Below are positions 18,544-55,668 of a DNA stretch of 58,148 bases, piece after piece. The notes beneath the pieces are model-generated. The model saw only the letters and a list, made by a program, of their open reading frames with translations. It searched no databases and was not told the DNA's origin. The DNA comes from Microcaldota archaeon (GTDB taxonomy: Archaea; Micrarchaeota; Micrarchaeia; Anstonellales; Anstonellaceae), in contig JAPLWX010000038.1 in NCBI GenBank assembly GCA_026396415.1, positions 1 through 58,148 on the forward strand. Reading direction: 5' to 3'. The translations under genes were made by a program, and so were the position numbers. Each line of letters starts with the position of its first letter. Positions within the stretch are counted from its first letter, which is position 1.

Positions 18544-18635
18544 GTTGAGTGTTCCAGGCATCCGGGCAAAGGCCTGCATGTTAATGCCATATTGCGCACG
18601 AGCGAATAAACGGAGTTAGGCGCATAAACTGGCAC

Positions 18636-19937: not shown

Positions 19938-20028
19938 GCCTATCTCTCCGGTCAAAGGGTAATTTGAGGCTTCATGCCCAATCCGGCACATACGTGCCAG
20001 ATCGGGGCGAACTGAGGTTAGAATAAAG

Positions 20029-30925: not shown

Positions 30926-31918
30926 TCACTTTGAATTTAGCTTTGGATACTCTATTGGAATATCCCTGAATTGGTCGATTTTATAAATGTAGGTAGGCTC
31001 CACACGAGAGATAATGTCCGAGAACTTGTATTTCATCTCCTGGATGATTTTCCTGAAAGGCTCGCCGCGCTCCACCTCGATGTCAAGCACAAGGTCCCAA
31101 TTGCCAATCACGCGGAGATGGTGCACAATATTCGGGTGCAGCTGGCAGTAGGTGAAAAGCATTTTCTCCTTTTGGGAGGTGAGGTTTGCAAGCTTGAACA
31201 GGACGCGGTGGCGCGGCTTGCCCAGAAGCACGTGGTCGGGCAAGATGGTGTAGCTTTGGATGATGCCTACCTTCTCCAGCTTTTTGACGATGTTCTTGGC
31301 GGATATTTCTGAAATGCCGATTTTGCGCGCGATTTGCACCAGCGGAACGCGTGCATTGTAATTCACCATGGAAAGCACTTTCCGCTCGCTTTCTGAAAGC
31401 ATTTCTTCACGCACTTCGGCGCCGGTGAAAGCAGTGTATGCTTCCCTGGGCTGCTTTTTTTCCGCATCAATCAGGTAAGCGCGGTGGAATTGGGTGAAGC
31501 CGATGGGAATTGTGGTGTCGTATTCGCGGAAATTCTTTCCAAAGCGGTTGGAAAGCTCTGTGATGATGTCGCGCAGGTGGAATATCCCCTTGGCGCAGAT
31601 GGCAATTATGAGATCTGCGTATCCTTCGCCGCGCATTATGATGGGAATGAAACGGTGGCTATTGAGATAATCAAAAAGCTCCTTTTCCGATTCCTTGTCC
31701 ATATTCTGCAGCTTGAAGAAGTATAGCCCAAAGAAGTAGTCTGCCTTCCGGTACTCTATCATGGGCCAGCAGTACTGCAGCACGCCTGACTTTTGTAGGT
31801 TTTCCACCCTGTACTTGACAACCTGAGGGCTGGTTTTCAGCGTCTTGGCAATTGAGCTGTAGGACTGGCGCGAATCCTGGTCAAGTTCATAGAGGATTTT
31901 CCTGTCTGTCAAGTCCAT
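30926..31918 (-). CDS. Double Lrp/AsnC-family transcription regulator
   Basis: The protein has 330 residues with two helix-turn-helix domains: residues 1-50 (LTDRKILYELDQDSRQSYSSIAKTLKTSP) and about 175-220 (LSESERKVLSMVNYNARVPLVQIARKIGIS). Each is followed by a ligand-sensing alpha/beta RAM-like segment. This is a tandem duplication of the usual 150-residue Lrp unit. The promoter region is AT-rich and shared with the divergent 32018 gene, so control of that gene and self-control are likely. Lrp proteins sense amino acids, and the neighbour may act on one, but the ligand is unknown. Confidence 0.85.
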   Translation of the reverse strand: MDLTDRKILYELDQDSRQSYSSIAKTLKTSPQVVKYRVENLQKSGVLQYCWPMIEYRKADYFFGLYFFKLQNMDKESEKELFDYLNSHRFIPIIMRGEGYADLIIAICAKGIFHLRDIITELSNRFGKNFREYDTTIPIGFTQFHRAYLIDAEKKQPREAYTAFTGAEVREEMLSESERKVLSMVNYNARVPLVQIARKIGISEISAKNIVKKLEKVGIIQSYTILPDHVLLGKPRHRVLFKLANLTSQKEKMLFTYCQLHPNIVHHLRVIGNWDLVLDIEVERGEPFRKIIQEMKYKFSDIISRVEPTYIYKIDQFRDIPIEYPKLNSK

Positions 31919-32017: not shown

Positions 32018-32791
32018 ATGCAGGTGCAAAAAACAGGGGAAATAAGCAGCTTGATGACGGAGAGCGCAGCGCCAGCAGCAATAGCTCCGGGTCGTTCTCC
32101 GCAAGATGAGGTAGTCCGGAGAATGACCAGGAAGAAGCGCTGCAGGTTCCACGCAAAATATCCGGATAGGCTGAAAGGCGCCATCAGGCTCGCCATGGCA
32201 AAAAGGAAGCCGATTGGGCTTTTCATGCTCTGGGGTGTGTGGAAAAAAGGCGCTGTGGATGGCGCCGAGGCGGCTGCACTCGACATTATTGACGCAATGT
32301 TGCACGATGTGCAGGAGGTTTACCCGCCTGGCTTTCGCCTTACCATGGTAATGGCGGATACGCACGCTACACTTAATCTGATGGATAAAATGAGTGTGTA
32401 TGGCTATGATTCCTACATTGGCGCTTTTGAGAGGTATGCGCGCGCCAGGGGGCACACTGTTTTGAGGCTGAGTGAAGTGCTCGCGCGGGCTCATGCTGAG
32501 CCGGAAGGAGTGGAAGAGGGGCTTGCGCGCGTGCAGCAGAGCGATTACTGGCCCATACTTGTTGCATCGGCAGGCAAGTACTATGAGGGAGAGGACAAAG
32601 AGAATGGGGCAAGGGCATATGTTGAGCGTCGGCTTGCCGAGAAGCCAACCCTGGAGCGGGCTTTCAAGCAGGCAATTTTCATGACCTACAACGGCCCGCG
32701 CTACGATGTCCTTGCGCCTGACTTGCCAACCATTTACCCGATTGCCAACAGGAAACGGACGAACGAGAAGCCTTGGTTTGTGCTGGACTGA
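32018..32791 (+). CDS. Unassigned 257-residue protein, faint resemblance to PvcA/DIT1 fold
   Basis: The protein is soluble, with no membrane segment. The central part VYPPGFRLTMVMADTHATLNLMD...YIGAFERYARARGH has the pattern of the DIT1_PvcA (isocyanide synthase) family, in which a predicted strand is followed by an Asp-bearing loop, but the match is weak and I would not name an activity. N-terminal basic residues (MTRKKRCRFHAKYPDR) precede it. It is transcribed away from the Lrp regulator, which probably controls it, and lies 59 bp before the cysteine-rich array. It may belong to that transcript. Confidence 0.6.
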   Translation: MQVQKTGEISSLMTESAAPAAIAPGRSPQDEVVRRMTRKKRCRFHAKYPDRLKGAIRLAMAKRKPIGLFMLWGVWKKGAVDGAEAAALDIIDAMLHDVQEVYPPGFRLTMVMADTHATLNLMDKMSVYGYDSYIGAFERYARARGHTVLRLSEVLARAHAEPEGVEEGLARVQQSDYWPILVASAGKYYEGEDKENGARAYVERRLAEKPTLERAFKQAIFMTYNGPRYDVLAPDLPTIYPIANRKRTNEKPWFVLD

Positions 32792-32850: not shown

Positions 32851-34422
32851 ATGGACGCCGTGCTAGAAAGGCAGATGCAGAAGGACTGGGACGCTACCTG
32901 CCGGGTGCTGTTCGGCGCGGAGATGGGCAAGCTACATGATTTCCTTCCCTGGCTCTCTTACTACGCGCCGCCTTCATCGAAGAGGAAATCGCATGTTTCA
33001 GGAAAGGAGGTGGCGCTTGCCACCGACCGCTATCCGAAAAACGCGCGCTTCGTGTCTGCCGACGAGGTGGAGCACAACTGCAGCTATGCGCTGTCCATGA
33101 ACGACATAAAGGACATCGACTCGCTGAGACGCGCGCTTCTTGAAAAGTGCGAGTATTCAGGCAACAGGTTACTCGGCAACACCGCGTTTGCTGATTCGTC
33201 CGACCTCATCACGGATTCCCAGTACATTTATTCCTCGAACCAGATACAGAACTGCTCGCACGCCTGCGCGTCCACGCTCATACGCAGGGGGTGCAAATAC
33301 GCGTTCGGGTGCGTATGGCACGGCGAGTGCGAGTTTACCCTGAGAGTGGCAGGGGCGTACAATGTGAAACGATGCTTCGAGTCATTCATGGTCACGGATT
33401 CGACAGGCCTGGCGTTTTGCCATGCGTGCCTGAACTGCCATGACCTCATGTTCTGCTTCGGGCAGCAGAACGCCGGCTACAGGATAGGCAACATCCAGCT
33501 GGAAAAAACCAGGTATGCCCTGCTCAAGGCAAAGCTAATGTCCGAAATCGTTGAGCGGCTGGCGGAGGAAAAGGCGTTCCCGTCCTTGTTTGAGCTGGTC
33601 CCTGACACCCTCCCGAAAAGCATCCCGAAAATCAGCGTGAAGGAGGAAAAGGATGTGCAGAATGTCGATATTGTGAGAAAGGGGTTTGCCTCCACATACG
33701 GGATAATTTTCAAAAAGCCTCCAAAACATAAACTAGAGGAATATGCGGACTGGCTGGAGCAGGGCGCAGTCAGGGCGATTGCGATAAAGACGCCGTATGG
33801 GCGGGAATCCTACATACCCGAGAACTTTTCCATGTATTCAATGATGCCGCGCTCCAGGCTGGTATCGGTACCGGAAATAATGGAAATCGGCAAGCATGAG
33901 ATGCCTTCAAGCTGCCTGGAGGGGCTCGAGGGGATGTTTGCCGCAATGAAGGACAGCTTTTTCTTCACAGGGGAGTTTTACAGCGGCAAGAGCAGGAATG
34001 CAGCCACGACGCCGTGCGTGTTCAATGCCGTGAACACCTACAAGGGATTTGACGCCACAAATGCGGAAAACACCGCTTATGCCACGCTTGCGCTCAATTC
34101 AAAATACACATATGGCGGCAACTGGACGCTGGAGTCGGAGTTCTGCATAAAGTGCTACAACTCCAATTTCCTTGCGCGCTGCCTGGAGATGGACGGCTGC
34201 ACTAAGTGCGCTGATTCTTACTTCTGCCACAACTGCGAAGGATTGACGGATTGCATGTTCTGCTTCAACATGAAAGGCGCGCGCCACTGCATCGCAAACA
34301 CGCAGCTTTCCCGCGAGGAATACATAAAAGCGCGCGATGCCATACTAGCAAAGCTCTCGGATGAGCTTGACAGCACGCGCGGGCTGAAGATGAGCATCTA
34401 CAACATCGGGGCGAAGGGATGA
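32851..34422 (+). CDS. Cysteine-rich duplicated repeat protein, copy 1 of 6
   Basis: The protein has 523 residues, about 26 of them cysteine by my count. It has two homologous halves, each starting with a short helical segment (CRVLFGAEMGKLHDFLPWL; YGIIFKKPPKHKLEEYADWL). Each half continues with short serine/asparagine/cysteine-rich repeats that look like the coils of a beta-solenoid and closes with a cysteine core (FCHACLNCHDLMFCF; CTKCADSYFCHNCEGLTDC) and a helix. The C terminus is SIYNIGAKG. No signal peptide or membrane segment, so intracellular. First of a tandem family. Cysteine spacing suggests metal binding; function unknown. Similar CxNCxDCxxC solenoid proteins occur in candidate-phyla bacteria, from memory. 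Confidence 0.75.
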   Translation: MDAVLERQMQKDWDATCRVLFGAEMGKLHDFLPWLSYYAPPSSKRKSHVSGKEVALATDRYPKNARFVSADEVEHNCSYALSMNDIKDIDSLRRALLEKCEYSGNRLLGNTAFADSSDLITDSQYIYSSNQIQNCSHACASTLIRRGCKYAFGCVWHGECEFTLRVAGAYNVKRCFESFMVTDSTGLAFCHACLNCHDLMFCFGQQNAGYRIGNIQLEKTRYALLKAKLMSEIVERLAEEKAFPSLFELVPDTLPKSIPKISVKEEKDVQNVDIVRKGFASTYGIIFKKPPKHKLEEYADWLEQGAVRAIAIKTPYGRESYIPENFSMYSMMPRSRLVSVPEIMEIGKHEMPSSCLEGLEGMFAAMKDSFFFTGEFYSGKSRNAATTPCVFNAVNTYKGFDATNAENTAYATLALNSKYTYGGNWTLESEFCIKCYNSNFLARCLEMDGCTKCADSYFCHNCEGLTDCMFCFNMKGARHCIANTQLSREEYIKARDAILAKLSDELDSTRGLKMSIYNIGAKG

Positions 34423-34478
34423 GCGAGGAACAGGGCGAGATAAACTGGAAGTTCATGAATACGGATTGAGGTTCTTGC

Positions 34479-36083
34479 ATGGATAAAAATGACCAATCGG
34501 AAACCTACTTCGAGCTCAATAGGAGATGGAACACCCTTTGCAGGACAATCTTTGGAGAAGAGATAGGGGACATGAAAGAATATGGCGGATGGCTTGCGGA
34601 AAACACTCTGCCCCTTTTTGCCAGGAAATCCGGTTCGTCCGGCAAGGAGGTGGCATTCGTATTGCCATATTATCCAAAAGAGGCCAATTTTGCCTCGCTG
34701 GACGAGGTGGACTTCAACAGGAAGTTCGGGCAGCTGTCAATAAACGAAGTGAAGGACATTGATTCGGTCATTGGGGCGGTTTCGGAAAGGGCTTGCTATT
34801 CAGGCAACATTGTCCTTGGGAATTCGAAGTTCGTGGATGGGAGCGCAGACATCATTGACAGCTTCTACATCTACCGCTCTGCGCAAATCAGCTTCTCGAA
34901 ATACGTTGCTTATGGATACAATATGGAATATGCGGAAGGCGTCTTTGGGACAATAAACCACGGGCACTGCAACAATTCCATAAGGATATCAGATTCCAAC
35001 TTCCTCAGCCGCTGCTTTGAGACGTATGGCTCTGAGCAAAGCTCTGATTTATTCTATTCCCACAAGCTCTTCAACTGCAGAAACTGCCTTTTCTCATTCA
35101 ACCTGAGGAATGCAAGGAACGCCATAGGCAATCTCCAGCTCCAGCCGGAAAAATATGCAGAACTCAAAAAGAAGCTTCTGTCTGAAATGGCAGGGATTCT
35201 CAGGAAAGAAAGAAAACTGCCAAGCCTGCTTCAGATGGTTGGCGGCTCTGAGCCGGACCTGCGCGCCCTTTCAGCCCTTCGGCAGAAGCTTGAGCCGCTC
35301 CGGAAAAAGGAACAAAGGCAGGACGTGATTGAGGACGCGTTCGAAAAAACAACCGCGGTTGTCCTTGGAAAAGGCCTTAAGGGCGTGGAAAGGTACGGGG
35401 CATACCTTCGTGAATACACGCGGAAAACCGTGCAATGCAACTCCGCGATGAGCGGTGAGCAGATAACGGTTGCGGACTACGCCCGCTATATGGATTACCC
35501 GAAAAACAGGCTTTTGACCGAGCAGGAGGCGGAGCTGGCCGGTAAATCGTTCAAAATCAGCACTGAAGAACTCAATGAGCTTGATTTGGCCAAGGCTGGC
35601 AAACTGATTGGCAAAATCGCCTATTTCCATCCAGGATTTGACCATGGGAAGCTTTCTAATATCATTGACAGCCAGGTAAACCTGGATGCGGTGAATTGCT
35701 TCAAAGGCATACTCAACCTTTATTCGAAAAACTGCGCCTACAACTTCTACACCCTTGAGTCCGAGTCGGTTTTCGGCTGCAATTCCATCAGAAAATCGAA
35801 TTTCGTGATGCGCTGTTTCCTGTCTGCAAACCTCTCAAGATGCTTCGAGGTCGATTCCAGCCGCCAGTGCTCTGACTGCTATTTCTGCCACAACTGCGAG
35901 AATGTCCATGATTCCATGTTCTGCTTCAACGTGAAGAACAAGTGGAACGCAATCGGCAACGTGGAATACCCGAAGGAGAAGTATGCCGAGGCGAAGCAGG
36001 CGCTTCTTTCGCAAATCGCCCAGAAGCTTGAGAAGGACAAGAAACTGGGCATGAGCATCTACAACATCGGGGCGAGGAAATGA
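34479..36083 (+). CDS. Cysteine-rich duplicated repeat protein, copy 2 of 6
   Basis: The protein has 534 residues with the same two-half plan as copy 1. Half 1 holds INEVKDIDSVIGAVSERACYSGNIVLGNSKFV and RNCLFSFNLRNARNAIGN, with fewer cysteines in its core. Half 2 ends with CSDCYFCHNCENVHDSMF and FNVKNKWNAIGN, then SIYNIGARK. The repeated phrase Y/C-x-G-N-x-V-L-G-N-S-K-Y/F-V marks the first solenoid turn. The gap to copy 1 is 56 bp, enough for an internal promoter, and the stop overlaps copy 3 by 4 nt. The weaker N-terminal core suggests the halves have different tasks. Confidence 0.75.
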   Translation: MDKNDQSETYFELNRRWNTLCRTIFGEEIGDMKEYGGWLAENTLPLFARKSGSSGKEVAFVLPYYPKEANFASLDEVDFNRKFGQLSINEVKDIDSVIGAVSERACYSGNIVLGNSKFVDGSADIIDSFYIYRSAQISFSKYVAYGYNMEYAEGVFGTINHGHCNNSIRISDSNFLSRCFETYGSEQSSDLFYSHKLFNCRNCLFSFNLRNARNAIGNLQLQPEKYAELKKKLLSEMAGILRKERKLPSLLQMVGGSEPDLRALSALRQKLEPLRKKEQRQDVIEDAFEKTTAVVLGKGLKGVERYGAYLREYTRKTVQCNSAMSGEQITVADYARYMDYPKNRLLTEQEAELAGKSFKISTEELNELDLAKAGKLIGKIAYFHPGFDHGKLSNIIDSQVNLDAVNCFKGILNLYSKNCAYNFYTLESESVFGCNSIRKSNFVMRCFLSANLSRCFEVDSSRQCSDCYFCHNCENVHDSMFCFNVKNKWNAIGNVEYPKEKYAEAKQALLSQIAQKLEKDKKLGMSIYNIGARK

Positions 36084-37678
36084 GCGAACTTTCAGATGTG
36101 CTTGAAAGGAAATGGGGCTCCACGTGCAAATTGGTTTTCGGGGAGCCCATAGGCCCGCTGGAAGATTATGCAGCATGGCTTTCTGAGATGGCAGGCGCTG
36201 TCTTTACCAGGAGCTCATCAGTGTCAGGCAAGGAAGTCTCGTTTTCTGTTGACGACTATGCCAAATCCGCCAAGGCAATGGGATTTGAGGAAAACGACTT
36301 TGCCGCGAAGTTCCAGCCCATATCAATCAATGACATAAAGGATATAGATTCGCTTGCGCGCGCGGTTTCAGAGCGGGCGGTCTATACAGGCAACATCGTG
36401 CTTGGCAATTCCAAGTACGTTGAGAGAAGCTCAAATGTTTCAGACAGCTTCTACGTCTCATCATCAAGCCAGGTGGGAGATTCAAAATACATTGCTTACG
36501 ACAGCATGGCGCGCCTGTGCGATTCGGTCTTCGGATGCGCCATGCCCGGCGACTCGGAATACATCGTGCGCTGCAACGACACCTACAAGACGCGCCGCTG
36601 CTTCGAGATATGGATGACTGCAAACAGCGCGGACTGCTACTATTCGTTTGCCCTGAACAACTGCTCCGACTGCATCTTCTGCTTCAACTCCCGCTCCGCA
36701 AGGCATGCAATAGGGAACACAAAACTCCCGCGTGAGAAGTATTCCGAAATAAAATCCAGGCTGCTTTCGCAGATGAGGGACGAGCTGGGAAGGAAAAAGA
36801 GGCTGCCCTCCCTTCTTGACATCGTGGCAAAGGCCAAGGACACCAGGGAGGAAAGCAGGGCGCTTCTTGAGGGAAGATTCACCCCTGGAAAGCGGGAAAA
36901 GAAAGACATGCAGCCCATGGAGGATGCGTTTTCCCATGCCTCGTCCATTGTGCTTGGGAGGGAGCTGCGCGGCATTTCTGCATATTCCCCCTGGCTCAAG
37001 TCCCATGTGAAGGAAAGCGAGAAGAGGAAATCAGTCCTTACCGGCAGGGAAATATTCGTGGGCGGGTATGCCAATTACCTCGACATTCCAAAGGACAGGA
37101 CTGTGCTTGAGGACGAGGCTTTCAGGCTGGACGAGCTCCGCCCTTCCATTTCCGGGCTGGAGGGCATCACGCTCCAAAACGCGCACGAGCGCATAGGCGG
37201 AGTTGCCTACTTTGCGCTGGAATTCCAGGCTGCGGCAAGCAGGAACATGGTGGACTGCATGGCCTATGCGAACAGCGTGAACTGCTTCTGCACCTTCCCC
37301 TGCAATGAGGCGAAGGACTCTGCGGTGGACTTCTGGCCGCGAAGCTCGGAGCATGTTTTCGGCTGCGGCATAATCTTCGACTCCAACTTCTGCTTCAAGT
37401 GCCACCAGTCGGTGAAGCTGCAGCGCTGTTTTGAGTGCGACTCGTGCCGCGACTGCTCTGACTCGTACTTCTGCCACAACGCCGAGAATTGCCATGATTG
37501 CATGTTCTGCTTCAATGTGAAGAACATGAAGTATGCGATAGGCAATGTTGAGATGGGAAAGGAAGAATACGCGCGCGTGAAGAAGATGCTCCTTGCAGAG
37601 ATTGGCGCGAAGCTTGAGAAGGATAAAAAGCTGGAGTGGAATATCTACAACATCGGTGCATCGCATGGCAAGAAGTGA
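36080..37678 (+). CDS. Cysteine-rich duplicated repeat protein, copy 3 of 6
   Basis: The protein has 532 residues. Half 1: YTGNIVLGNSKYVERSSNVSDSFYVSSSS, CNDTYKTRRCFEIW, CSDCIFCFNSRSARHAIGN. Half 2: the signature AHERIGGVAYFALEF, WPRSSEHVFGCG, LQRCFECDSCRDCSDSYF and NCHDCMFCFNVKN. R-C-F-E occurs in both halves and is conserved across copies, as is A-x-E-x-I-G-x-I/V. It starts inside the stop of copy 2 (ATGA) and overlaps copy 4 by 14 nt, so copies 2-4 are tightly coupled in translation. The sequence shows no catalytic motif I recognise. Confidence 0.75.
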   Translation: MSELSDVLERKWGSTCKLVFGEPIGPLEDYAAWLSEMAGAVFTRSSSVSGKEVSFSVDDYAKSAKAMGFEENDFAAKFQPISINDIKDIDSLARAVSERAVYTGNIVLGNSKYVERSSNVSDSFYVSSSSQVGDSKYIAYDSMARLCDSVFGCAMPGDSEYIVRCNDTYKTRRCFEIWMTANSADCYYSFALNNCSDCIFCFNSRSARHAIGNTKLPREKYSEIKSRLLSQMRDELGRKKRLPSLLDIVAKAKDTREESRALLEGRFTPGKREKKDMQPMEDAFSHASSIVLGRELRGISAYSPWLKSHVKESEKRKSVLTGREIFVGGYANYLDIPKDRTVLEDEAFRLDELRPSISGLEGITLQNAHERIGGVAYFALEFQAAASRNMVDCMAYANSVNCFCTFPCNEAKDSAVDFWPRSSEHVFGCGIIFDSNFCFKCHQSVKLQRCFECDSCRDCSDSYFCHNAENCHDCMFCFNVKNMKYAIGNVEMGKEEYARVKKMLLAEIGAKLEKDKKLEWNIYNIGASHGKK

Positions 37679-39248
37679 AACCCTTGAGGCATTGAACAGG
37701 CGCTTCAAAGGCGCGTGCAAGATACTGCTCAAATCAGAGGTTGGCGATATCTGGGAGTTTGACGATTACCTTGACGGCATGATTGAGGTGAACAGGCACG
37801 AAAAGTCGCATGTTTCCGGCAAGGACGTGGTGCTGGGCATAAAGGAGTATGCTGCAGATGCGCGGTTCGTAAGCTACGACGAGATAGACTACGGGAAAAA
37901 ATACGCCCCTGTGCCGCTTGCAGGGGCAGCGGGCATTGATTCGCTTGTCAGCGCGCTTTTGGGCAGGTTCGCATACGCAGGCAACCTTGTCATCGGGAAA
38001 TCCAGCCACGTAGAGAGGAGCGCGAATATTTCAGACAGCCACTTTGTCTATGACTCTGCGCTCTACGGGGACTGCAAGTACATGTACAAGAGCACGCTGG
38101 GAAGGCTGAATGAGGATTTATTCGGCTCGCACGGGTGCGGGGAGTCGCAGTTCTGCATACGCTGCACGCAGACATACAGGGACAGACGCTGCTTCGAGGC
38201 GTGGATGACGCAGAACTGCGCCGATGTCTACTACTCTTTCAACCTTGATTTCTGCTCGGAATGCATGTTCTGCTTCAATTTGAGGAACAGGCACCACTGT
38301 ATAGGCAATGTGCAGCTTGAGCCTGAGGAATACTTCAAGGTGAAGGAAAGGCTGCTTGCCGAGATGGCGCAGATGCTCAAGCGCGACAAGGCGCTTCCCT
38401 CGCTTGTTGAAATATTGGCAAGGAGCAGCTGGAGCAAGCCGAAAATTCCCGACATCCCAGGCACAAACCAAGGCGGGGGAAAAGTTGAGGTGGAGCGGGA
38501 GTTTTCAAAGACAACAAAGCTTGTCCTGGGCACGGAGCTTCGCGGCATTGACAGCTACAGGGAATGGCTGCTGGAGCACACGCACACGATTTTGAGGCTC
38601 AAGTCAGCGGCAAGCGGCAAGGATGTGCTTTTCCTGCCCTTTGTGGTCGCCCTGCCCAAGCTTCCTGACAACCGCCTGCTCACCATGGAGGAGGCGCTGT
38701 GGCTGGGAGAGCACTCCGCCATAAGCCAGCAGGAGGCGAAAAGCATAAGCATGGCAAATGCGCATGAGCGCATAGGCGGCATTGGCTTTTTCCCAATCGA
38801 GTTCTGGGAGGGGAAAAATGCATTCGTGACAGATTCCTACATGTCGCTCCATACCTCGTACTGCTACCTCACCTCGGCAATGGTGGAGGCGAAATACTGC
38901 GCGTGCGGCATGTGGCCCAGGACTTCAGAGCACTGCTTCGGATTCGATTCGCTTTTGGACTGCAGCTTCTGCGTCAAGTGCTACAACTCGCAGAAGCTCC
39001 AGCGCTGCTTTGAGTGCGATTCCTGCAATTCATCTTCAGACTGCTACTTTTGCCACAACGTTGAGAACTGCCATGACTGCCTGTTTTGCTTCAACGTGAA
39101 GAACTTGAAATATGCTGTGGGCAATGTAGAGGTCGGCAAGGAGGAGTATGCGCGCGTGAAGAGGATGGTGCAAGACGAAATTGCGGCAAAAGTCGCGAAG
39201 GAGAAGAAGCTGGCGTGGAGCATTTACGGCATAGGGGCGAGGAAATGA
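37665..39248 (+). CDS. Cysteine-rich duplicated repeat protein, copy 4 of 6
   Basis: The protein has 527 residues from ATG 37665 (MARSETLEALNRRFKGACKILL). A longer frame back to 37593 lies inside copy 3 and is rejected. Half 1 holds SHFVYDSALYGDCKYMYKS and CSECMFCFNLRNRHHCIGN; half 2 holds AHERIGGIGFFPIEF, LQRCFECDSCNSSSDCYF and NCHDCLFCFNVKNLKYAVGN, ending SIYGIGARK. It is closest to copy 3 in the C-terminal core, which points to a recent duplication. The stop overlaps the start of the Bat-type regulator gene by 4 nt. Confidence 0.75.
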   Translation: MARSETLEALNRRFKGACKILLKSEVGDIWEFDDYLDGMIEVNRHEKSHVSGKDVVLGIKEYAADARFVSYDEIDYGKKYAPVPLAGAAGIDSLVSALLGRFAYAGNLVIGKSSHVERSANISDSHFVYDSALYGDCKYMYKSTLGRLNEDLFGSHGCGESQFCIRCTQTYRDRRCFEAWMTQNCADVYYSFNLDFCSECMFCFNLRNRHHCIGNVQLEPEEYFKVKERLLAEMAQMLKRDKALPSLVEILARSSWSKPKIPDIPGTNQGGGKVEVEREFSKTTKLVLGTELRGIDSYREWLLEHTHTILRLKSAASGKDVLFLPFVVALPKLPDNRLLTMEEALWLGEHSAISQQEAKSISMANAHERIGGIGFFPIEFWEGKNAFVTDSYMSLHTSYCYLTSAMVEAKYCACGMWPRTSEHCFGFDSLLDCSFCVKCYNSQKLQRCFECDSCNSSSDCYFCHNVENCHDCLFCFNVKNLKYAVGNVEVGKEEYARVKRMVQDEIAAKVAKEKKLAWSIYGIGARK

Positions 39249-39973
39249 GCCGCGAGCAGGACGAGATAAACCGGAAGTGGAAGGAAAAGAAGGTCAAAGC
39301 CGCCACCATAGGCTTCTACCACCAGAATTGCCAGACCAGCATATCCACCGAGAAGTTCCCGCACATCAGGCTGGACGAGGTGAGCCCGGTCGTCTATCTT
39401 GACCGGAAACCGGGCAAATATGATTATCTTCTTATGTGGAATGTCAGGGCGGAGAAGCCCTCCGAAGTTGATGAGTACCTCACATATGTCAAGCGCCACA
39501 ATGACACGAAAAGGCTCACTGTGCTTGAGAAGTCGGGCAGCCAGGCGCTCATTCTCCTGAATGCCTACATGCCCTCTTCGAGCTATGAAAAGGTGCTGCA
39601 GAGCGGCACGATATCCACCTCGCCGGTCCTTGCCAAGGACGGGTTTGAGACTTACAATGTCGTTTCGCCAGACCCCAAGGGCATAAAGAAGCTCGCGCAC
39701 GAGCTGGAAGCCATTGGCGACGTGAAGATAATGCGCGTGGGCGATTACCGGAGCGAGATAACCGGGCCGTCGCTCACGGACAAGCAGAAGGACGCGCTTG
39801 CGGTCGCGCTCATGAGCGGCTACTACTCCTGGCCGCGCGGCGTGGGGCTGGTACAGCTTGCGCAGGCTGCCAAAATCTCGCGCAGAAGCATGCAGGAGAG
39901 GCTGAGGCGTGCGGAGGCAAAGTTGTTCCCGCACCTCGTGAAGGGCTATCTTGAGAAAAGCGGCAAGAAATAG
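39245..39973 (+). CDS. Bat-type (HTH_10) transcription regulator inside the array
   Basis: The protein has 242 residues from ATG 39245. The C terminus LTDKQKDALAVALMSGYYSWPRGVGLVQLAQAAKISRRSMQERLRRAEAKLF is the bacterio-opsin-activator HTH domain found in archaeal regulators. The first 170 residues (KAATIGFYHQNCQTSISTEKFP...DYLLMWNVRAEKPSEVDEYL) would be a sensor domain of unknown ligand. The start overlaps copy 4 (ATGA), so regulator and array proteins are made together. Control of the array is likely but inferred. Three cysteine-rich genes precede it with tight coupling and two follow. Confidence 0.85.
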   Translation: MSREQDEINRKWKEKKVKAATIGFYHQNCQTSISTEKFPHIRLDEVSPVVYLDRKPGKYDYLLMWNVRAEKPSEVDEYLTYVKRHNDTKRLTVLEKSGSQALILLNAYMPSSSYEKVLQSGTISTSPVLAKDGFETYNVVSPDPKGIKKLAHELEAIGDVKIMRVGDYRSEITGPSLTDKQKDALAVALMSGYYSWPRGVGLVQLAQAAKISRRSMQERLRRAEAKLFPHLVKGYLEKSGKK

Positions 39974-40023
39974 GGCATATGCCCAATAAAGCATTAAGTT
40001 GGACAGAGGGCATAATTTGCGAT

Positions 40024-41619
40024 ATGGATAAACCGCCAGCCGCGCTGCCTGTTCTGCAGAAGAGGTGGGATAGCACATGCAGGGTGCTTTTCGGCAAGGA
40101 AGTGGGCAGGCTTGAGGAATTCGGCCCGTGGCTTTCGGACATGGGCGAAAGGCTGGTGCACAGGAAGTCGGCTGTTTCCGGGAATGACGTCACTTATGCC
40201 ATAAGGGATTATGCCGAGGGGAGCAGGTGGATTTCATTTGACGAGATTGATTTCACCAAGAAGGCAGCCCCCCTTCCCGCAGGCATTGACGGCATCAATA
40301 ATATTGGCTTGATTGTCTCATTGCTGCAAGGCAGGTTCTATTACGCAGGAAGCGCGGTGCTGGGCAATTCGCAGTATGTGGAGAAAAGCTCGGGCATCAC
40401 CGACTGCTTTTACATGCTCCAGACAGGCAAGCTCACCGAATGCAAGTACATAGCATATTCGGTGCTTGGCAGGCTGAACGAGGATGGCTTCGGGGTGAAT
40501 GGCAACGGGGAGAGCGCGATGTGCGTAAAATGCTGCGAAACTTTCCGCGACAGGCGCTGCTTTGAGCTTTGGCAGTCCCGCTCGTGCTCAGACTGCTATT
40601 ACTCGCACAACCTCGACGACTGCCAGGAGTGCTTCTTCTGTTTCAATGCCAAGAACCTGCGCCATGCAATAGGGAATGTGCAATTGCCGAAAGAAAAATA
40701 CTATGAGGTAAAGAAGAGGCTGCAAACAGAGATGGCGGAAAAGCTGGCAAGGGAAAAGAGGCTGCCTTCGCTTGTGGAGATTGCAGCCAAGTGCCCAAAG
40801 CCCTCAGCCCCCAGGCTTTCCGCCCCTGCAACTCCTGAAAAAGCCGACAAAGCCGTGATTGAGGAGGCATTTGCAAAAACCTGCAACATTGTGCTGGGAA
40901 GAAGGCTGCAGGGAAGCATTGACGATTATGCGGAATGGCTGAAGAGGAACATCAGGCGGAGCGAAACCCTGAAGTCCGCGGCAAGCGGGAAGCCTGTGAG
41001 GAGGTTTGATTACTGCGAGTATTTTGCGCTGCCGCCCGGCAGGCTGCTAACAAGGGAGGAGGCAAGGGAGGCGGGGGAAAAGCTGAAAATAGGGGAAAAG
41101 GAGGCGGAAAGCCTCTCGCTTGCCAATGCGCATGAAAGCATCGGCAAAATCGCATTCTTCTGCCCGGAATACAGGGACGGGATGAACCTGAATATCATTG
41201 AGTGCGCGACCTGCGGCGACTCTGCGCACTGCTACCGCTCTTCACCAGTTGTTTTCTCGAAATATGCCGGCTATTGCTTCTGGCCCCGCTCAAGCGAGCA
41301 TGCGTTCGGCTGCGCCGCGCTCCTCTCATCGGAATTCAATATCAGGTGCTTCAATTCTGTCAAGCTTGCCCGCTGCTTTGAGGTGGACTTCTCGCGGGAC
41401 TGCTCGGGCTGCTATTATTGCCATAACGTTGAGAATTGCACTGACTGCATGCTCTGCTTCAATGCCAAGAACCTCCGCTACGCGGTTGGGAACGTGGAAG
41501 TGGGCAGGGAAAGGTTCATGGAGATGAAGAAGAGGCTGCTCGGGCTTGCGGGAAAGGAGCTTGAGGAAACCAAGGGCTTGCACTGGGGGATATACAATAT
41601 TGGCGCGCAAACAGGATAG
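40024..41619 (+). CDS. Cysteine-rich duplicated repeat protein, copy 5 of 6
   Basis: The protein has 531 residues from ATG 40024, in line with the start of the other copies. Half 1: FYYAGSAVLGNSQYVEKSSGITDCFYM, RRCFELWQSRSCSDCYYSHNLDDCQECFFCF. Half 2: AHESIGKIAFFCPEY, WPRSSEHAFGCAALLSSEFN, LARCFEVDFSRDCSGCYY, NCTDCMLCFNAKNLRYAVGN, ending GIYNIGAQTG. The gap after the regulator gene is about 50 bp, so translation may restart here. Both halves keep a full cysteine core, unlike copy 2. Confidence 0.75.
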   Translation: MDKPPAALPVLQKRWDSTCRVLFGKEVGRLEEFGPWLSDMGERLVHRKSAVSGNDVTYAIRDYAEGSRWISFDEIDFTKKAAPLPAGIDGINNIGLIVSLLQGRFYYAGSAVLGNSQYVEKSSGITDCFYMLQTGKLTECKYIAYSVLGRLNEDGFGVNGNGESAMCVKCCETFRDRRCFELWQSRSCSDCYYSHNLDDCQECFFCFNAKNLRHAIGNVQLPKEKYYEVKKRLQTEMAEKLAREKRLPSLVEIAAKCPKPSAPRLSAPATPEKADKAVIEEAFAKTCNIVLGRRLQGSIDDYAEWLKRNIRRSETLKSAASGKPVRRFDYCEYFALPPGRLLTREEAREAGEKLKIGEKEAESLSLANAHESIGKIAFFCPEYRDGMNLNIIECATCGDSAHCYRSSPVVFSKYAGYCFWPRSSEHAFGCAALLSSEFNIRCFNSVKLARCFEVDFSRDCSGCYYCHNVENCTDCMLCFNAKNLRYAVGNVEVGRERFMEMKKRLLGLAGKELEETKGLHWGIYNIGAQTG

Positions 41620-41661
41620 ATGTTTTTAACTTAGGGAGCACAAAAGCAAAACGGTGAATGA

Positions 41662-43211
41662 TTGGACCTCAACAGTGCCTGGAAATCCACCTGCAGGCTG
41701 GTTTTAGGCGAGGAGATAGGCGAGCTTGAAGAGTTCCGCGAGTACTTGCTCACAAGGCACTTTCCCATTTCCGAAAGAAAGTCCGCGCTTTCCGGCAAGC
41801 GCGTTGTGATGGGCTCGGACAGGTATCCGAAGGGGGCAAAGGTCATTTCGCAGGACGAGATAGACTATGCGAAGAAATACCCGGCGCTTGGCATAAATGA
41901 AATCAAGGACATTGACTCCATAATTGAAGCGTTCCATGAGCGCTTCCTCTACTGCGGCAACAAGGTGTTCGGCGTTAGCAGGTTTTTCTCAGGAGTGGAC
42001 AACTGCACGGACAGCTTTTTCGTGGAAGAGTCCCATGATGTCGTGGGAAGCAAGTACGTGGCATACTCGTCCTTTGTCAGGATAGGATCTGAGCACGTTT
42101 TTGGTTCGGGCGTGCTCATACGCGGCGCGCACCTCATCAAGATACTGGGCAGCGCCGACCTGTCGCGGAGCTTTGACTGCAGCATGTGTACCGCGTCATC
42201 GGACATGCTGTTCTCTGTGTACTCGCACGGCTGCTCAAACTGCCTGTTCTGCTTCAACCAGAGGAACAAGAAATACGCGATAGGCAACCTGGAGCTTCCC
42301 CGCGAGAGGTATTTTGAGATACGGAAAAAAATAGTTTCCGAGGTTGCAGAGCATCTGCGGAAGCACAAAAGCTTTCCCTCGGTTTTCGATTTCCCCCTCT
42401 TGGGGAAAAACCGCCAATCTCTGCCGTCCGCCCGCGCGAGGAATTCGACATCGCGCCGGTAGAGAAGGCATTTGAGGCGACCACGGGCCTGATTTTCGGG
42501 AAGCCTCTGCACGGCTTGGACGCGCATGCGCGCTTTCTCCTGAACAAGGTGGAGGAAATCAAGGAGGCGAAAACCGCGCTTGGCGGGCAAGCGTATTATT
42601 CCAACTATTTCTGGAGCAGGAATACACCTCCAACAAGGAGGATTGGCAAGCACGAAACTGAGGAGGCAGGCAAGCTGGAAATAGCTCTTGCAGAAGGAGA
42701 GCTGCCAGGCTTTGCGGCGCTGAAGGAGAAAGTACAGAAAATCGCGCTCTATACGGTCGAATTTGATCTGGGCACGCGCCAGAACTGCGGCGTAACGCCG
42801 GTGGTATACGAGGCGGTCGACTCGTACAGGATAAGCGACGCGACATATGCGAAAAAATGCGGCTATTGCACGCACATACAGAACTGCGACTCGGTTTTCG
42901 GCTCAGGCATATTGATGGTGGATTCATCATTCTGCCTGCGCTGCAACGACTGCGTGAAGACGACTGCGAGCTTTGAGCTTGACTCGTGCAAGAGCTGCCA
43001 CCGCTGCATGTTCTGCCATAACTGCGAAAACCTCTCGGATTCCATGTTCTGCTTCAATGCGAAAAACCTCAAGCATGCGGTCGGGAATGTGGAGGTTGGC
43101 AGGGAAGAGTACGCGCGCATAAGGCATATTGTGGTGAATGACATATTGCAAAGGCTGGAAAGGAAAGGCGACGTCGGATTTGACGTCTGTAGCATTGGCA
43201 CGAAGAAGTAG
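41662..43211 (+). pseudogene. Cysteine-rich duplicated repeat protein, copy 6 of 6, frameshifted
   Basis: Two frames together make one family member. The first (TTG 41662, MDLNSAWKSTCRLVLGEEIG) runs through half 1 to a premature stop at 42462. The second, in the -1 frame, continues with EEFDIAPVEKAFEATTGLIFGKPLHGLDAH and ends with SCHRCMFCHNCENLSDSMF and FNAKNLKHAVGN. The switch lies near 42391-42410, where runs of C, G and A follow each other, so one extra base explains it. Without the shift the protein would be about 515 residues. It could be an assembly error or real loss of function. It ends back to back with the HerA-like gene. Confidence 0.75.
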
Positions 43212-45938
43212 TTACTTTTTCTTAGGCTTGGCTTTTGCCGCAGGCTTTTTGGCGCTCGTTTTTGCTTTGGAGGGAGTTATTTTTGCCGTTGGAGATGGCT
43301 TCTCCTCTGCCTCTTCCTCGTCGGGCATGGAAACCTCGGGCTGATGCACACGGGCGCGCGCTGCCGCCTTTTCGCGTATCCTGCTCAGCTTCTGCGCAAG
43401 GGAGGCGTCCTCGTCATCCTCTTTTTGCAGGAGGGAGCGTTCTTCCCGTGATTCTTCATCTGATGCTTCTTTTGCGCGCTTCGCCCTGCGGGGGGCAGGA
43501 GCTTCATCCTCGCTTCCTTCTTCACCCCGGCTGCGCCTGCTGGCCTTCTTTGCTGGCTTTGCCTCAGGCTCGTATTCAGGCATGTAAATCGGCTTGTGCT
43601 TGCTGCGGGGCTTTGATTTTGGAGCGGGCTCTTCATCTTCGGGCGCCTCATTCTCATCCTCTGGCGATTCGCCCTCGTCTGCAGGCATTTCTTCTTCGGA
43701 TGAAGGCGCCTCACCCTTATCTGCCGGCTCGTCCTCATCAGGAGAGGATTCTTCGTCCTTGGGCGCATCCTTATAGGCAGTGTCCTCGTCAAGCGCGAGC
43801 TCCTTTTCCTTGTCCGCAATGTCCTCTTCGCTTTCCTTCTCTTCGTGCGGCTCCTCGTCCTCGCGGAGCCTTATGGGCGAGTCTTCCTCAAGCTTCATGC
43901 CCATGAGCTCGTCTGAGAATTTCGCTGGCTTTTTTTCCTCGTCTTCATCTGACCGGGAACTCTCTTCTTTTTCCTCATCCCCTTCCTTGTCTTTAGTCTC
44001 ATCCTTGAAAACAGGGGGCTGCGGCTTCTTTTCCGCGCCGTACTGCACATTGTAGCTTGCCGATGACTGCTGCGCGCCTGCGGACTGGGAATGTGCGCTT
44101 TGCCGGTGCACCGGGGCTTGCGCGCCCTGCGCATTGCCCGCCTGGGGCGGCGGGCGGACCTGCCCAGAACCGTATTGCGCGACAGGGGGCTTGCCGTCGG
44201 AATCATTCGTGTCATGCGCGGCATCCATCTGGGAAAGCTCCATGGATGGCTTGTAGCCCCAGCGCGCGACATCCACCACGTGCAGCTTCATGGGAAGTAT
44301 GTATTTCTTGCCGTCGAACAGCCGCACAATGCACTCACGCTGGTGAAGCCTTACAAACATCTCCTTCTTGCTTTCCTCAAGCTCGGTTTGCGTCCGCGCC
44401 TTCTTGAAGGATTCCTCTATCTTGATTTCCATGATGGATGAAATCATCGTTGCATCCTCCCTGTTGAGCTTGAAGGAGACGATGTTCCTTATGTTCGAGA
44501 CTATGCTGTCATGTATCTCCTTCTGCATCTGCCCGAGGTACTGCATGGAGAGGTAGGCATAGAGGTTGAATTTGCGCGTCTCGGAGAGGATGTCCTTCAC
44601 CACCTTGGTCTCCACGCGCTGGAACTCGTCCATCACGAGGATGGTGGGCACGTTGAGCTTTTCCGTGATGGCAAGGATGTACATCTGGTTTATCACGGCG
44701 CCGGCAAGGAAGTTGATCATCCGCTTGCCGAAGAAGTTGGGATTGAAGGAAATCACGGTGACGTTGTTCTTGCGGATGAGGTTGAGGAGATCCTCCTTTT
44801 TCTTGTCGCCGCCAAGGTAAAGCTCGTATTCGCCCACGAAGTTGAGCACGGGCAGTATGGCATCGTTGAAGTGGTGGATGTAGATGTCATTGAACTCCTC
44901 GTCGAAGAAGCGCTTTATCTCGTCGTTCTCGACAGAGGAGACGAACTCCGCGCGCTTACTGGAGTCCGTGAGCAGGAGGGAGACGTTCTTCAGGTTCATG
45001 GAGTCTATGGAGGAGAGCAGGTGCACCGCGTAGAACAGCACGCGCTCGGAGTATTTGTTGTCCCCGCCTATTGCCGATGAAAGAAGCTGGGAGATGAGCT
45101 GCGTCATCAAGGGCGTCTTGTTGCCCCCGACGTCGAGGGGCTCGATGTAGTTGTGGACGAGGTCGACTATGTAGTCGTTGGGGAACATGCGCACGAACTC
45201 GCCGTGCGGGTCAATCATCACTATGCGGACGTTGCTGCCGTATTTCGCCTGTATGGACTTTATCAGGGCGAAGAGCCCCTTGCTTTTCCCTGTGCCCGAT
45301 GCGCCTATCACAAGCGTGTGCTGGAAGATGTCGAAATTGTCCACGCCCACGGTGATGCCGGTTTCCTCGAACACCGGGTATTGCGAGGTGACCGACATGC
45401 GCTTTGGTATGGGGTCCAGTATCTCGATGTAGACCGCGGGGTTCTTCTCCAGGTCCACCTCGAAAAAGCGCTCGGGGCTGGTGGAAACCACTATGCTTTT
45501 CTTTCCCTTCTCGTTCACCGCGGTGCCAAAGCCCAGCGTCTTGCCAAGCACCCTCCAAATCTTCAGGTCCACCTCCACTATGCTTTCCTTCAGGGCAAGG
45601 GAGAGGAAGTCCTGCGCGCCGCCGAGAAAGTAGAACTTGGGGAACGGGAGCATGCTGCCTTTTTCCTTTTCAAGCATGACCGGCTCGGACACCTTGTAGG
45701 GGAAGACGAGCATGGACATGTCCGCAAGCCCTTTTCTCTCGCGCGCAAAGAACTGCATGGTGTTTATCTTGCGCTTGGTGATGATGTTTATGAAGTTCGG
45801 CGAGAAGAAGTCGCGGAAATCAATGAATCCCAGGAATGGCATTGTGGACTTGAGAATCTGGTTGAAGAGGTTCCTCACGTCCGACTCCTTTATCTTTTCA
45901 GAGTAAAGGAGGAGCTCGCGCGCTTTCACAGTTCCCAT
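43212..45938 (-). CDS. HerA/VirB4-superfamily ATPase with long acidic tail
   Basis: The protein has 908 residues. A beta-rich N-terminal domain (about 1-190) precedes the P-loop core: Walker A GASGTGKSKGL (about residue 212), IDPHGEFVRMFP, Walker B TILVMDEFQRV and a hexamer-type finger RNIVSFKLNREDA. This is the HerA/FtsK/VirD4 superfamily, whose members pump DNA or act in secretion. From about residue 570 the chain is low complexity: glutamine/serine-rich, then strongly acidic (EEDIADKEKELALDEDTAY), ending in a lysine/alanine-rich basic tail. The tail resembles a eukaryotic-like charged linker. It converges with the cysteine-rich array, with no base between the two stop codons. Confidence 0.82.
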   Translation of the reverse strand: MGTVKARELLLYSEKIKESDVRNLFNQILKSTMPFLGFIDFRDFFSPNFINIITKRKINTMQFFARERKGLADMSMLVFPYKVSEPVMLEKEKGSMLPFPKFYFLGGAQDFLSLALKESIVEVDLKIWRVLGKTLGFGTAVNEKGKKSIVVSTSPERFFEVDLEKNPAVYIEILDPIPKRMSVTSQYPVFEETGITVGVDNFDIFQHTLVIGASGTGKSKGLFALIKSIQAKYGSNVRIVMIDPHGEFVRMFPNDYIVDLVHNYIEPLDVGGNKTPLMTQLISQLLSSAIGGDNKYSERVLFYAVHLLSSIDSMNLKNVSLLLTDSSKRAEFVSSVENDEIKRFFDEEFNDIYIHHFNDAILPVLNFVGEYELYLGGDKKKEDLLNLIRKNNVTVISFNPNFFGKRMINFLAGAVINQMYILAITEKLNVPTILVMDEFQRVETKVVKDILSETRKFNLYAYLSMQYLGQMQKEIHDSIVSNIRNIVSFKLNREDATMISSIMEIKIEESFKKARTQTELEESKKEMFVRLHQRECIVRLFDGKKYILPMKLHVVDVARWGYKPSMELSQMDAAHDTNDSDGKPPVAQYGSGQVRPPPQAGNAQGAQAPVHRQSAHSQSAGAQQSSASYNVQYGAEKKPQPPVFKDETKDKEGDEEKEESSRSDEDEEKKPAKFSDELMGMKLEEDSPIRLREDEEPHEEKESEEDIADKEKELALDEDTAYKDAPKDEESSPDEDEPADKGEAPSSEEEMPADEGESPEDENEAPEDEEPAPKSKPRSKHKPIYMPEYEPEAKPAKKASRRSRGEEGSEDEAPAPRRAKRAKEASDEESREERSLLQKEDDEDASLAQKLSRIREKAAARARVHQPEVSMPDEEEAEEKPSPTAKITPSKAKTSAKKPAAKAKPKKK

Positions 45939-46465: not shown

Positions 46466-46489
46466 GTGGTTTACTACCGGATTATTTCA

Positions 46490-46525
46490 TATACCTTTAT
46501 ATACTTCAAACGCATTAACAGCTAC
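46490..46525 (+). promoter_or_regulatory. Promoter of the element B integrase
   Basis: A TATA box (CTTTATATAC, 46495-46504) lies about 25 bp before ATG 46526. This makes the internal ATG the start, with a leaderless or near-leaderless message, and rejects the in-frame GTG at 46466, which overlaps the promoter. Confidence 0.6.
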
Positions 46526-47785
46526 ATGGATTCAATTTCTTCATCTCCTCCGACGTACACAACGTCAGCAGCCTATGATGTTGTTCGGCTTGCCCATTTC
46601 AAGAACGTTCTCAAGACAGACGAAGCCATAATTCCGGCAAACAAAATAGACCTCATGAAATTTATAAGCCATATGGAGAGCCGCGGCATCACCATTTCGC
46701 GTTGCCGCTCGCTCATGGATGACATAATGTGGTTCGGCAGGCTCCTGAAAAAGCGCTGGATGGACTGCACCCGCGAAGACATTGACGAGCTGATGGCCGA
46801 TCTGCGCCGCACCGATTACGCAGGCTGGACAAAGCTCCGCAAGGCATTCGCACTCAAAACTTTCTACCGCTACCTGAATGGCGGCGACTCCCCGCCACAT
46901 TGCGTTGCCAGGATAAACCGCACAGAGCTTAATTTCGAAACCCACAATCTTGAAAGCCGGGACATCCTAAGCCTTGAAGACCTCCAAAAGCTGCTCAAGG
47001 CCTGCGACAACGAACTTGAATCTGCGCTTATCTATTGCTTATGGGAGAGTGGCGCACGCTCGTCCGAGTTTATGAGACTCACAATTGGCGACCTGGAGGA
47101 CAAGGGCAACTTCTACTTGGTTCACATCCGCACTTCCAAAGTCAGGGCTTCCTCAAGCGCCCCAAGAGTCCGCAAGTTCCCCCTAGTGGAAAGCGTTGGC
47201 TTCCTTCGAGCCTATTTGAACAAGCACCCTATGCGTGACAACCCACAGGCAGCCCTTTGGCTCTCAAACAGCCAGAACCGCCGCAGGCAGCCTCTGACAG
47301 ACCGGGGCCTACGTTTCATCATCAAAGGCATAGGCAAGCGCGCCAAGATAGGCAAACGGGTGTGGGTGCACCAGTTCAGGCACTCTGCAGCCACCCGCAT
47401 GGCCCCCAAGCTCTCCCTGCCAATAATGAACGACCTTATGGGATGGAGCAAAAGCAGCCGCATGCACGCCACCTACGTGCAACTTGATGGCGAGGCATCC
47501 CAGCGCGCGGTTCTTGAACTTTACGGCATGGAGGCGCCACAGTCTAAGCCCAAGCCTGTTGAAATGCTTCCCTGCCCCGCCTGCAAGACTCCCAACCTGC
47601 CTGGCAATGTCATGTGCGCCATCTGCGGCCGCGCATTGCAGACCATCGGCGCAGTCAGCGTAATGGACGAGCTTGAGCAGATGAAGAAGAAAATGAACCA
47701 AATGATGCTGCCAGCCGCACGCGGATCCGTAACCCGAGCAAAGAGGGCCGCGCAAAGAAAGATGCTGAGAAAAAAGAGGGCGTAA
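46526..47785 (+). CDS. Tyrosine recombinase/integrase with C-terminal zinc ribbon (element B)
   Basis: The protein has 419 residues from ATG 46526. The catalytic set is WESGARSSEFMRL (Arg), HQFRHSAATRM (His-x-x-Arg) and MHATYVQLDG (Tyr). An N-terminal core-binding region precedes it, and a zinc ribbon CPACKTPNLPGNVMCAICG (about residues 350-368) plus a basic tail follow. The same domain order, including the ribbon, is found in the element A integrase, although sequence identity looks modest. It catalyses insertion and excision of element B; the attachment site is not resolved. Confidence 0.9.
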   Translation: MDSISSSPPTYTTSAAYDVVRLAHFKNVLKTDEAIIPANKIDLMKFISHMESRGITISRCRSLMDDIMWFGRLLKKRWMDCTREDIDELMADLRRTDYAGWTKLRKAFALKTFYRYLNGGDSPPHCVARINRTELNFETHNLESRDILSLEDLQKLLKACDNELESALIYCLWESGARSSEFMRLTIGDLEDKGNFYLVHIRTSKVRASSSAPRVRKFPLVESVGFLRAYLNKHPMRDNPQAALWLSNSQNRRRQPLTDRGLRFIIKGIGKRAKIGKRVWVHQFRHSAATRMAPKLSLPIMNDLMGWSKSSRMHATYVQLDGEASQRAVLELYGMEAPQSKPKPVEMLPCPACKTPNLPGNVMCAICGRALQTIGAVSVMDELEQMKKKMNQMMLPAARGSVTRAKRAAQRKMLRKKRA

Positions 47786-47794
47786 AAACACTTA

Positions 47795-47965
47795 CTACTG
47801 TTTATGCAACCAGGCGGGGCGACCGCGCTTTTTAGAAAGAATGTTCGCCTCAACACCAGTCCTAACTCGAATAACAAGGGTGCCCTCAACTTCATAGGCT
47901 TCTAACTCTGCCCAGTCCTCCATTACTGCGGTTTTCAAGCATGCAAGGCGGATATCCAGTGCCAT
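47795..47965 (-). CDS. Small unknown protein between integrase and operators (element B)
   Basis: The protein has 56 residues from ATG 47965: MALDIRLACLKTAVMEDWAELEAYEVEGTLVIRV, ending KKRGRPAWLHKQ. A helix is followed by a short beta segment and a basic tail with an AT-hook-like RGRP. An in-frame extension upstream crosses the operators and is unlikely. It is antisense to the integrase direction and converges with it after 9 bp. No match is seen in element A. A small DNA-binding accessory such as an excision factor is conceivable, but this is only inference. Confidence 0.45.
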   Translation of the reverse strand: MALDIRLACLKTAVMEDWAELEAYEVEGTLVIRVRTGVEANILSKKRGRPAWLHKQ

Positions 47966-48056
47966 GCCAATGTTATGCTCTAAGGGGTGCCTTATCGGTT
48001 CATGAATAATCCGACACGTTAATGCATGACAATCCCTAAACCCCAACGCGCGCGTT

Positions 48057-48109
48057 TTTCCGAGGAATTTCCCAGGAAATACCTCAGGGTTTTCTTCCTT
48101 CCTAGGAAA
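48057..48109 (+). promoter_or_regulatory. Triple operator TTTCCnnGGAAA upstream of winged helix gene (element B)
   Basis: Palindromes occur at 48057-48068 (TTTCCGAGGAAT), 48068-48079 (TTTCCCAGGAAA) and 48098-48109 (CTTCCTAGGAAA). Centres are 11 and 30 bp apart, with 56.5 bp from the last centre to ATG 48160. The order, spacing and distance equal those in element A, although the surrounding sequence differs. This implies that DNA geometry is under selection, probably for cooperative binding by the winged helix protein. Confidence 0.7.
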
Positions 48110-48159
48110 TGTGCTGGCTGCGGTCGCGCACAAATCTTTTTCCGCGCACAGAACAACTC

Positions 48160-48369
48160 ATGGTCGGAAGGGTTGATGAAAATCTCATGGTGAAGCTGCT
48201 TGAGCTTATCCCAAAAGAGAGCACGAGCGTGCACCAGCTGTGCTGCAAGACTAGCATAGACCACCGGACCATCAAGAAATATATCGCGCTGATAGTGCGC
48301 GTGCAAAACTCGCCTAGGCTGAAAGTGGAAACTATCGGCCTGCGCGTGCTTGTGAGGTTGGAAAAATGA
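48160..48369 (+). CDS. Small winged helix DNA-binding protein (element B)
   Basis: The protein has 69 residues from ATG 48160, aligned to the element A copy without gaps. The helix-turn-helix TSVHQLCCKTSIDHRTIKKYIALIV and wing RLKVETIGLRVLVRLE are conserved. D-H-R-T-I-K-K-Y in the recognition region is identical in both, consistent with both proteins reading the same TTTCCnnGGAAA sites. A TATA-like CAAATCTTTTT lies about 27 bp upstream. The stop overlaps the next gene by 4 nt. Confidence 0.8.
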   Translation: MVGRVDENLMVKLLELIPKESTSVHQLCCKTSIDHRTIKKYIALIVRVQNSPRLKVETIGLRVLVRLEK

Positions 48370-48560
48370 CGGAAAACTCGAACGTGGTTGTAATTGACGG
48401 CAAGGGGAAGGGTGCACCGGACTATGTGGTCAAGACGCCCACTGACGACGGCAAATGGGTGAAGCTCGGAGTCGGCTTCTTCAACCCCAAAAGCCAGTCG
48501 TTCACTATCTATTTCGATATCCTGCCGAACAGGCAGAAGGTGGTGATGTTCAGGGCTTAG
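48366..48560 (+). CDS. Conserved small protein next to the winged helix gene (element B)
   Basis: The protein has 64 residues, the same length as the element A partner. KTPTDDGKWVKLGVGFFNPKSQSFTIYFD is the conserved core, and the end NRQKVVMFRA parallels INKIVMFKNK. The fold is probably a small beta sheet. It is always coupled to the winged helix gene by a 4-nt overlap, so it may be a co-regulator or an early protein of the element. The 3' end overlaps the convergent cargo gene by 11 bp. Confidence 0.75.
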   Translation: MTENSNVVVIDGKGKGAPDYVVKTPTDDGKWVKLGVGFFNPKSQSFTIYFDILPNRQKVVMFRA

Positions 48561-49380: not shown

Positions 49381-49454
49381 GTTTTCACCATCTAAGATTG
49401 GGTTTCCTGGGCATAAAAACCTTCTGACCCGTAGAAATACCCCTCCCTGGCACA

Positions 49455-49509
49455 TTAATCCCAACTTCTCCACGCTGCATAATCTCACCCCTGCCCTATC
49501 AATAAGTGC
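49455..49509 (+). promoter_or_regulatory. Promoter of the methyltransferase-VirB operon (element B)
   Basis: TGCATAATCTCA (TATA at about 49476-49483) is followed by ACCCCTGCC and AATAAGTGCATGG, mirroring the element A promoter over about 60 bp including GCACAnTAAT upstream. The remaining part of the 129-bp divergent gap belongs to the cargo gene and shows only short A/T-rich stretches. Confidence 0.6.
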
Positions 49510-50585: not shown

Positions 50586-50587
50586 GC

Positions 50588-50812: not shown

Positions 50813-50816
50813 TACC

Positions 50817-51761: not shown

Positions 51762-51765
51762 TGAT

Positions 51766-55664: not shown

Positions 55665-55668
55665 AGAA

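Follow-up and report, generated by a model that had tools for sequence, protein, structure and literature searches.

The question raised by this locus is what a row of long cysteine-rich genes does in an archaeon with a small genome. The window, by which we mean the whole 58,148-nt stretch of DNA analysed, comes from an assembly of 1.74 Mb in 52 contigs. The initial annotation had described the locus as a tandem array of six duplicated proteins. As shown in Table 1, the tandem arrangement, the common direction and the span of 10 kb were upheld. However, a gene for an HTH_10 regulator was found to separate copies 4 and 5, and copy 6 is spread over two reading frames. Since the C-terminal half of copy 6 has no ATG, GTG or TTG codon where its domain begins, copy 6 is not counted as an intact sixth copy: either the gene is frameshifted or the assembly is wrong around 42400-42470. 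The overlapping ends reported among copies 2 to 4 were confirmed (4 nt between copies 2 and 3; 14 nt between copies 3 and 4), and so was the internal duplication, as the 12 halves can be aligned and recur at the DNA level every ~760-830 nt. The cysteine motif was present as claimed. Directly 3' of the array, a convergent gene abutting copy 6 encodes an ATPase.

Table 1. Position of the array, its neighbours and other features in the window
Feature	Position	Strand	Details
Solenoid copy 1	32851..34422	+	523 aa ORF
Solenoid copy 2	34479..36083	+	534 aa ORF
Solenoid copy 3	36080..37678	+	532 aa ORF; AlphaFold2 model with pLDDT 93.1, pTM 0.91
Solenoid copy 4	37665..39248	+	527 aa ORF; G005 orthologue 78% identical, adjoins regulator
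HTH_10 (bacterioopsin-activator type) regulator	39245..39973	+	242 aa; PF04967 1.3e-15
Solenoid copy 5	39979..41619	+	546 aa ORF; G005 orthologue 76% identical
Solenoid copy 6	41662..43211	+	two frames, 41662-42462 and 42432-43211 (266 + 231 aa)
Partner ATPase	43212..45938	-	908 aa; DUF87/HerA domain
Hma defence genes	603..6051		HmaB (827 bits), HmaC (1074 bits)
Mirror-like gene set, first	6249..19991
PDC-M68B candidate defence protein and adjoining protein	15198..17933		578 bits; adjoining protein with weak HNH and CTD10 matches
Lrp/AsnC-like regulator	30926..31918		resembles two-domain type
Gene just 5' of array	32018..32791		257 aa; sub-threshold DIT1/PvcA isonitrile synthase match, E 4e-4
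Mirror-like gene set, second	46466..56745

The solenoid-like turns noticed earlier were borne out by the AlphaFold2 model of copy 3, which was built with 135 sequences and scored highly (Table 1). In the predicted fold, a helical cap, a hairpin and a solenoid occur in duplicate and form two beta-solenoid halves. The predicted strands repeat about every six residues and the cysteines every three. Twenty-six of the 28 cysteine columns in the two solenoid regions had the same phase. Spacings of 3, 6, 9 and 12 between cysteines had 550-930 occurrences, compared to 20-60 for the off-phase spacings. The non-cysteine residues found in these columns were Ser (39%), Ala (13%), Thr (10%), Leu (10%), Val (9%) and Gly (7%), with almost no replacement by His, Asp or Glu. 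Since the three-residue period is strict and the replacements are mostly of this kind, the cysteines seem more likely to pack the core than to bind metal, and they would point inward into a packed core of small residues.

The initial annotation had favoured a cytoplasmic metal-binding or scaffold assembly. A thiol or metal store, with a cysteine-lined core that binds soft metals or buffers redox and with an incidental or regulatory link to the ATPase, would agree with the cysteine content of the solenoids (4.4%, compared to 1.6% in other ORFs) and with the predicted inward-facing ladders. Nevertheless, the cysteines are widely swapped for the residues listed above, their number ranges from 10 to 35 per protein, and the set of potential ligands is never invariant. 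Conservation above 90% was limited to C195, C477 and H466 among all columns of Cys or His, and most other cysteines were replaced by non-ligand residues. The metal-binding proposal is weakened by this result, and we consider a store of either kind very unlikely.

No family match was obtained for the solenoids in Pfam, NCBIfam, PADLOC or PDB sequence searches, in agreement with the earlier statement that no characterised family is recognisable, and Foldseek with the solenoid model returned nothing at E<=0.001 from PDB or BFVD. Judged by these failed membership tests in all of the named databases, the family appears to be new; no publication on it was found in the literature. The top Foldseek matches, non-significant with E>=0.17 (above 0.1) and TM about 0.1, were left-handed beta-helix hexapeptide proteins (LpxD, GlmU, gamma-carbonic anhydrase), whose strands likewise recur every six residues. 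However, the solenoids have no Pfam hexapeptide match, and their small core residues stand three apart, which is unlike the hexapeptide pattern of the left-handed beta-helix. Pentapeptide-repeat proteins such as MfpA and Qnr, being thin beta-solenoids with small residues turned inward, resemble the family as well, but their repeat is five residues whereas the period here is three. The solenoids are also near-neutral (mean pI 7.4) and no obvious DNA mimic, and DNA mimicry by charge was set aside on this ground.

No relative of the solenoids was detectable in viral contigs, phages or plasmids. When back-translated motif patterns were run against viral contigs, the first gave a single match, located at one end of a phage contig and judged to be due to chance, and the second gave none. 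A partial profile match to the viral family phrog_15341, to which no function is assigned, was weak and covered about 100 residues (best E 3e-7). Cysteine-rich proteins of candidate-phyla bacteria were presumed to be possible relatives; in a pattern-limited scan of genome contigs, the matches listed were archaeal. The profile search recovered archaeal relatives in 33 of the 59 nearest genomes (0 to 26 matches each), and presence was patchy inside the genus. Those relatives that bear a name are Candidatus Micrarchaeota, among them LFW-35, 'Ca. Anstonella stagnisolia' (PMC8561730). In one genome elsewhere in the class, 35 solenoid matches were counted, some of which are halves or fragments.

The genome itself carries 21 solenoid copies on ten contigs, 18 intact and 3 in two frames, and they make up about 2% of the assembly, so the earlier remark on a large investment by a small genome holds. 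Most of these copies lie far from the ATPase, next to unrelated housekeeping genes. When 135 full-length proteins were placed in a tree, the intact copies of this genome (18) were scattered among those of other genomes. Since they form no clade of their own, the paralogues are old, and an origin of the array by recent tandem duplication was ruled out. The dN/dS ratio was about 0.12 in three orthologous solenoid pairs, indicating purifying selection, and likewise about 0.12 for the ATPase and the HTH_10 regulator, all values being approximate because synonymous sites are near saturation. A recognition function shaped by an arms race is unsupported, as this low ratio applies over whole genes.

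Two-domain proteins are not the only form of the family. Beyond the order, five genomes have single-domain relatives of about 240 aa, in tandem arrays in two of the five, and an independent profile made from the single-domain proteins recovered the two-domain ones with E down to 1e-31. Within the order, the N-terminal and C-terminal halves are in many genomes two neighbouring genes, which in most cases overlap; each has its own start codon close to the boundary between the domains. Decay was ruled out for most of these split relatives by the start codons, and it was retained as an explanation for copy 6 of the array. The fused protein is thus equivalent to the two-gene pair, and this suggests that the two halves act together. 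At L208 (G018), the second solenoid ORF from the ATPase side is 890 aa long and has the family domain towards its C-terminus; the ~330 residues with which it begins are unexplained.

The distribution of the ATPase followed that of the solenoids closely. In the 295 genomes of the phylum, both were present in 49, the solenoid family only in four, the ATPase only in two and neither in 240 (Fisher 1.4e-48, a value that ignores kinship and rests on incomplete genomes). For the 59 nearest genomes, the corresponding numbers were 31, two, two and 24. The four family-only genomes may be explained by genome incompleteness. G006 and G029 are fairly complete genomes that carry the ATPase and have no detectable solenoid. 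With automatic ORF calling, the ATPase and a solenoid gene were no more than 300 bp apart in 26 of the 37 mapped genomes. This window, in which copy 6 abuts the ATPase, is added to them; its distance was scored as 1.6 kb because the split ORF of copy 6 was masked. In other families of the class, too, single-domain relatives stand next to the ATPase. Each genome has one ATPase locus, multiple matches being fragments, as compared with 1 to about 35 solenoid matches. It is therefore with considerable confidence that we regard the solenoid family and the ATPase as partners.

The gene order is partly kept as well. The arrangement solenoid, HTH_10 regulator, solenoid, ATPase is common to G000, G005 and G011, and in G005 the two solenoids that flank the regulator are orthologous to copies 4 and 5. 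The regulator between the two solenoids is 83% identical in G005 and 66% in G011, and five other genomes have more distant HTH_10 genes near the array (22-27% identity). Across 39 mapped loci, the recurrent neighbours were HTH_10 and Lrp-type regulators and local synteny, and no other gene family; in particular, neither a channel or membrane gene nor a conserved nuclease, protease or other effector gene next to the solenoid/ATPase pair recurred. The initial annotation missed the regulator within the array and the convergent, co-occurring ATPase, and by missing the wider set of paralogues it understated the family.

The ATPase contains a DUF87/HerA P-loop domain (PF01935, 3.8e-10, 40.7 bits against a cut-off of 23.2), for which four distant homologues also score above the cut-off. 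Residues G212, G215, G217, K218, D437 and E438 were invariant in 33 homologues, so that Walker A and Walker B are intact, and from about residue 570 on the C-terminal tail is acidic and of low complexity. The monomer model matched DndH-C (TMt 0.68), VirB4 (4ag5, TMt 0.69), TrwB (about 0.6) and HerA. On sequence and model, the protein is assigned to the HerA/VirB4/TrwB/DndH superfamily, with the same domain and fold as HerA/DndH-type ATPases. Its divergence tracked that of RpoB loosely (Spearman 0.63), and its identity was 56% to the same-genus G004 compared to 62% to G042 of another family. Purely vertical inheritance was rejected on this account, and since identity follows RpoB so loosely, loss or transfer is likely in the history of the gene.

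We propose that the array is part of a cytosolic two-component machine, in which the ATPase motor, encoded by one gene per genome, would work with many paralogous two-domain beta-solenoids as its exchangeable subunits. The solenoids would most likely act as adaptors or recognition arms and not as cargo; they would be in contact with the motor, a presumed hexamer, and deliver specific DNA or protein clients to it. This reading is favoured because there is one ATPase locus, many ancient solenoids, and no secretion, membrane or effector part, and we put its probability at roughly 0.5. Several observations count against it: whole genes are under purifying selection, with no indication of recognition surfaces that evolve fast, most copies are distant from the ATPase and lie beside housekeeping genes, the family-only (four) and ATPase-only (two) genomes exist, and no effector is conserved beside the pair. 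The further proposal that this is a new machine, in which one motor of the HerA/VirB4 superfamily works with up to about 35 ancient and functionally distinct solenoids, each for a different client, is more tentative, and we hold it at somewhat below even odds. If true, the scheme of one motor and many adaptors would be an unfamiliar way of diversifying one translocase. In any case, a hypothetical-protein expansion in DPANN archaea, to which about 2% of a small genome is given and for which no database entry or fold match was found, becomes a testable two-component system, and the cysteine solenoid with its period of three is of interest as a protein fold.

The superfamily assignment also bears on the possibility that the ATPase motors a reduced type IV-like export and that the solenoids are its folded substrates, destined for the surface or, as these archaea are probably host-associated, for a host cell. 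The likeness of the ATPase to VirB4 and to the TrwB coupling proteins, the match of a distant ATPase member to the TraG/TraD C-terminal region above the cut-off, and a gene ratio that fits one motor with many cargoes are consistent with such export. However, no hydrophobic N-terminus was present among the 135 solenoid homologues, which confirms the lack of signal peptides noted before, and no transmembrane segment was predicted in the solenoids or in the ATPase (maximum 19-residue hydropathy 1.52). The mapped loci also have no recurrent relaxase or channel gene as type IV secretion or conjugation systems do, and cysteine-rich proteins with unpaired thiols are better suited to the cytosol. We regard export of the solenoids as rather unlikely. 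Alternatively, the solenoids may form a cytosolic shell or filament of paralogous subunits on their own, with the ATPase only aiding assembly. The numerous conserved paralogues side by side, the paired halves and the repetitive fold speak for such a scaffold, but some ATPase-bearing genomes are down to one or two copies, and an independent scaffold is improbable. Like exported cargo and thiol or metal storage, it is less likely than the adaptor machine.

A role in defence was also considered, in which the ATPase and solenoids would detect or stop invading DNA, much as anti-phage systems built around HerA or DndH do. The fold neighbours of the ATPase include DndH and the anti-phage HerA complexes, presence is patchy within genera, the ATPase follows RpoB only loosely, and the same window carries defence genes and integrases. 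Nevertheless, in the HerA-SIR2 and HerA-DUF4297 complexes the ATPase is paired with an effector, whereas the partner here is a multi-copy beta-solenoid with no nuclease, SIR2 or DUF4297; no such domain was identified in the solenoids by PADLOC or Pfam, and none recurred in the mapped loci. Purifying selection over whole genes and the housekeeping neighbourhoods of most copies further disfavour this explanation, which we judge unlikely.

Apart from the array and the ATPase, the window contains mirror-like gene sets on either side of its middle. Each set has a phage-type integrase, a TraG/VirB4-like ATPase of ~1060 aa, an N6/N4 DNA methylase and a Cdc6-like ATPase, and the two are probably related integrative elements. 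Their larger TraG/VirB4 ATPases thus lie in separate putative mobile elements and are distinct from the partner ATPase. The Hma genes and the PDC-M68B candidate lie at one end of the window and, respectively, within the first set (Table 1). Just upstream of the array stand the gene with the isonitrile synthase match and the Lrp/AsnC-like regulator, relatives of which were found near the array in G003, G010, G014 and G023.
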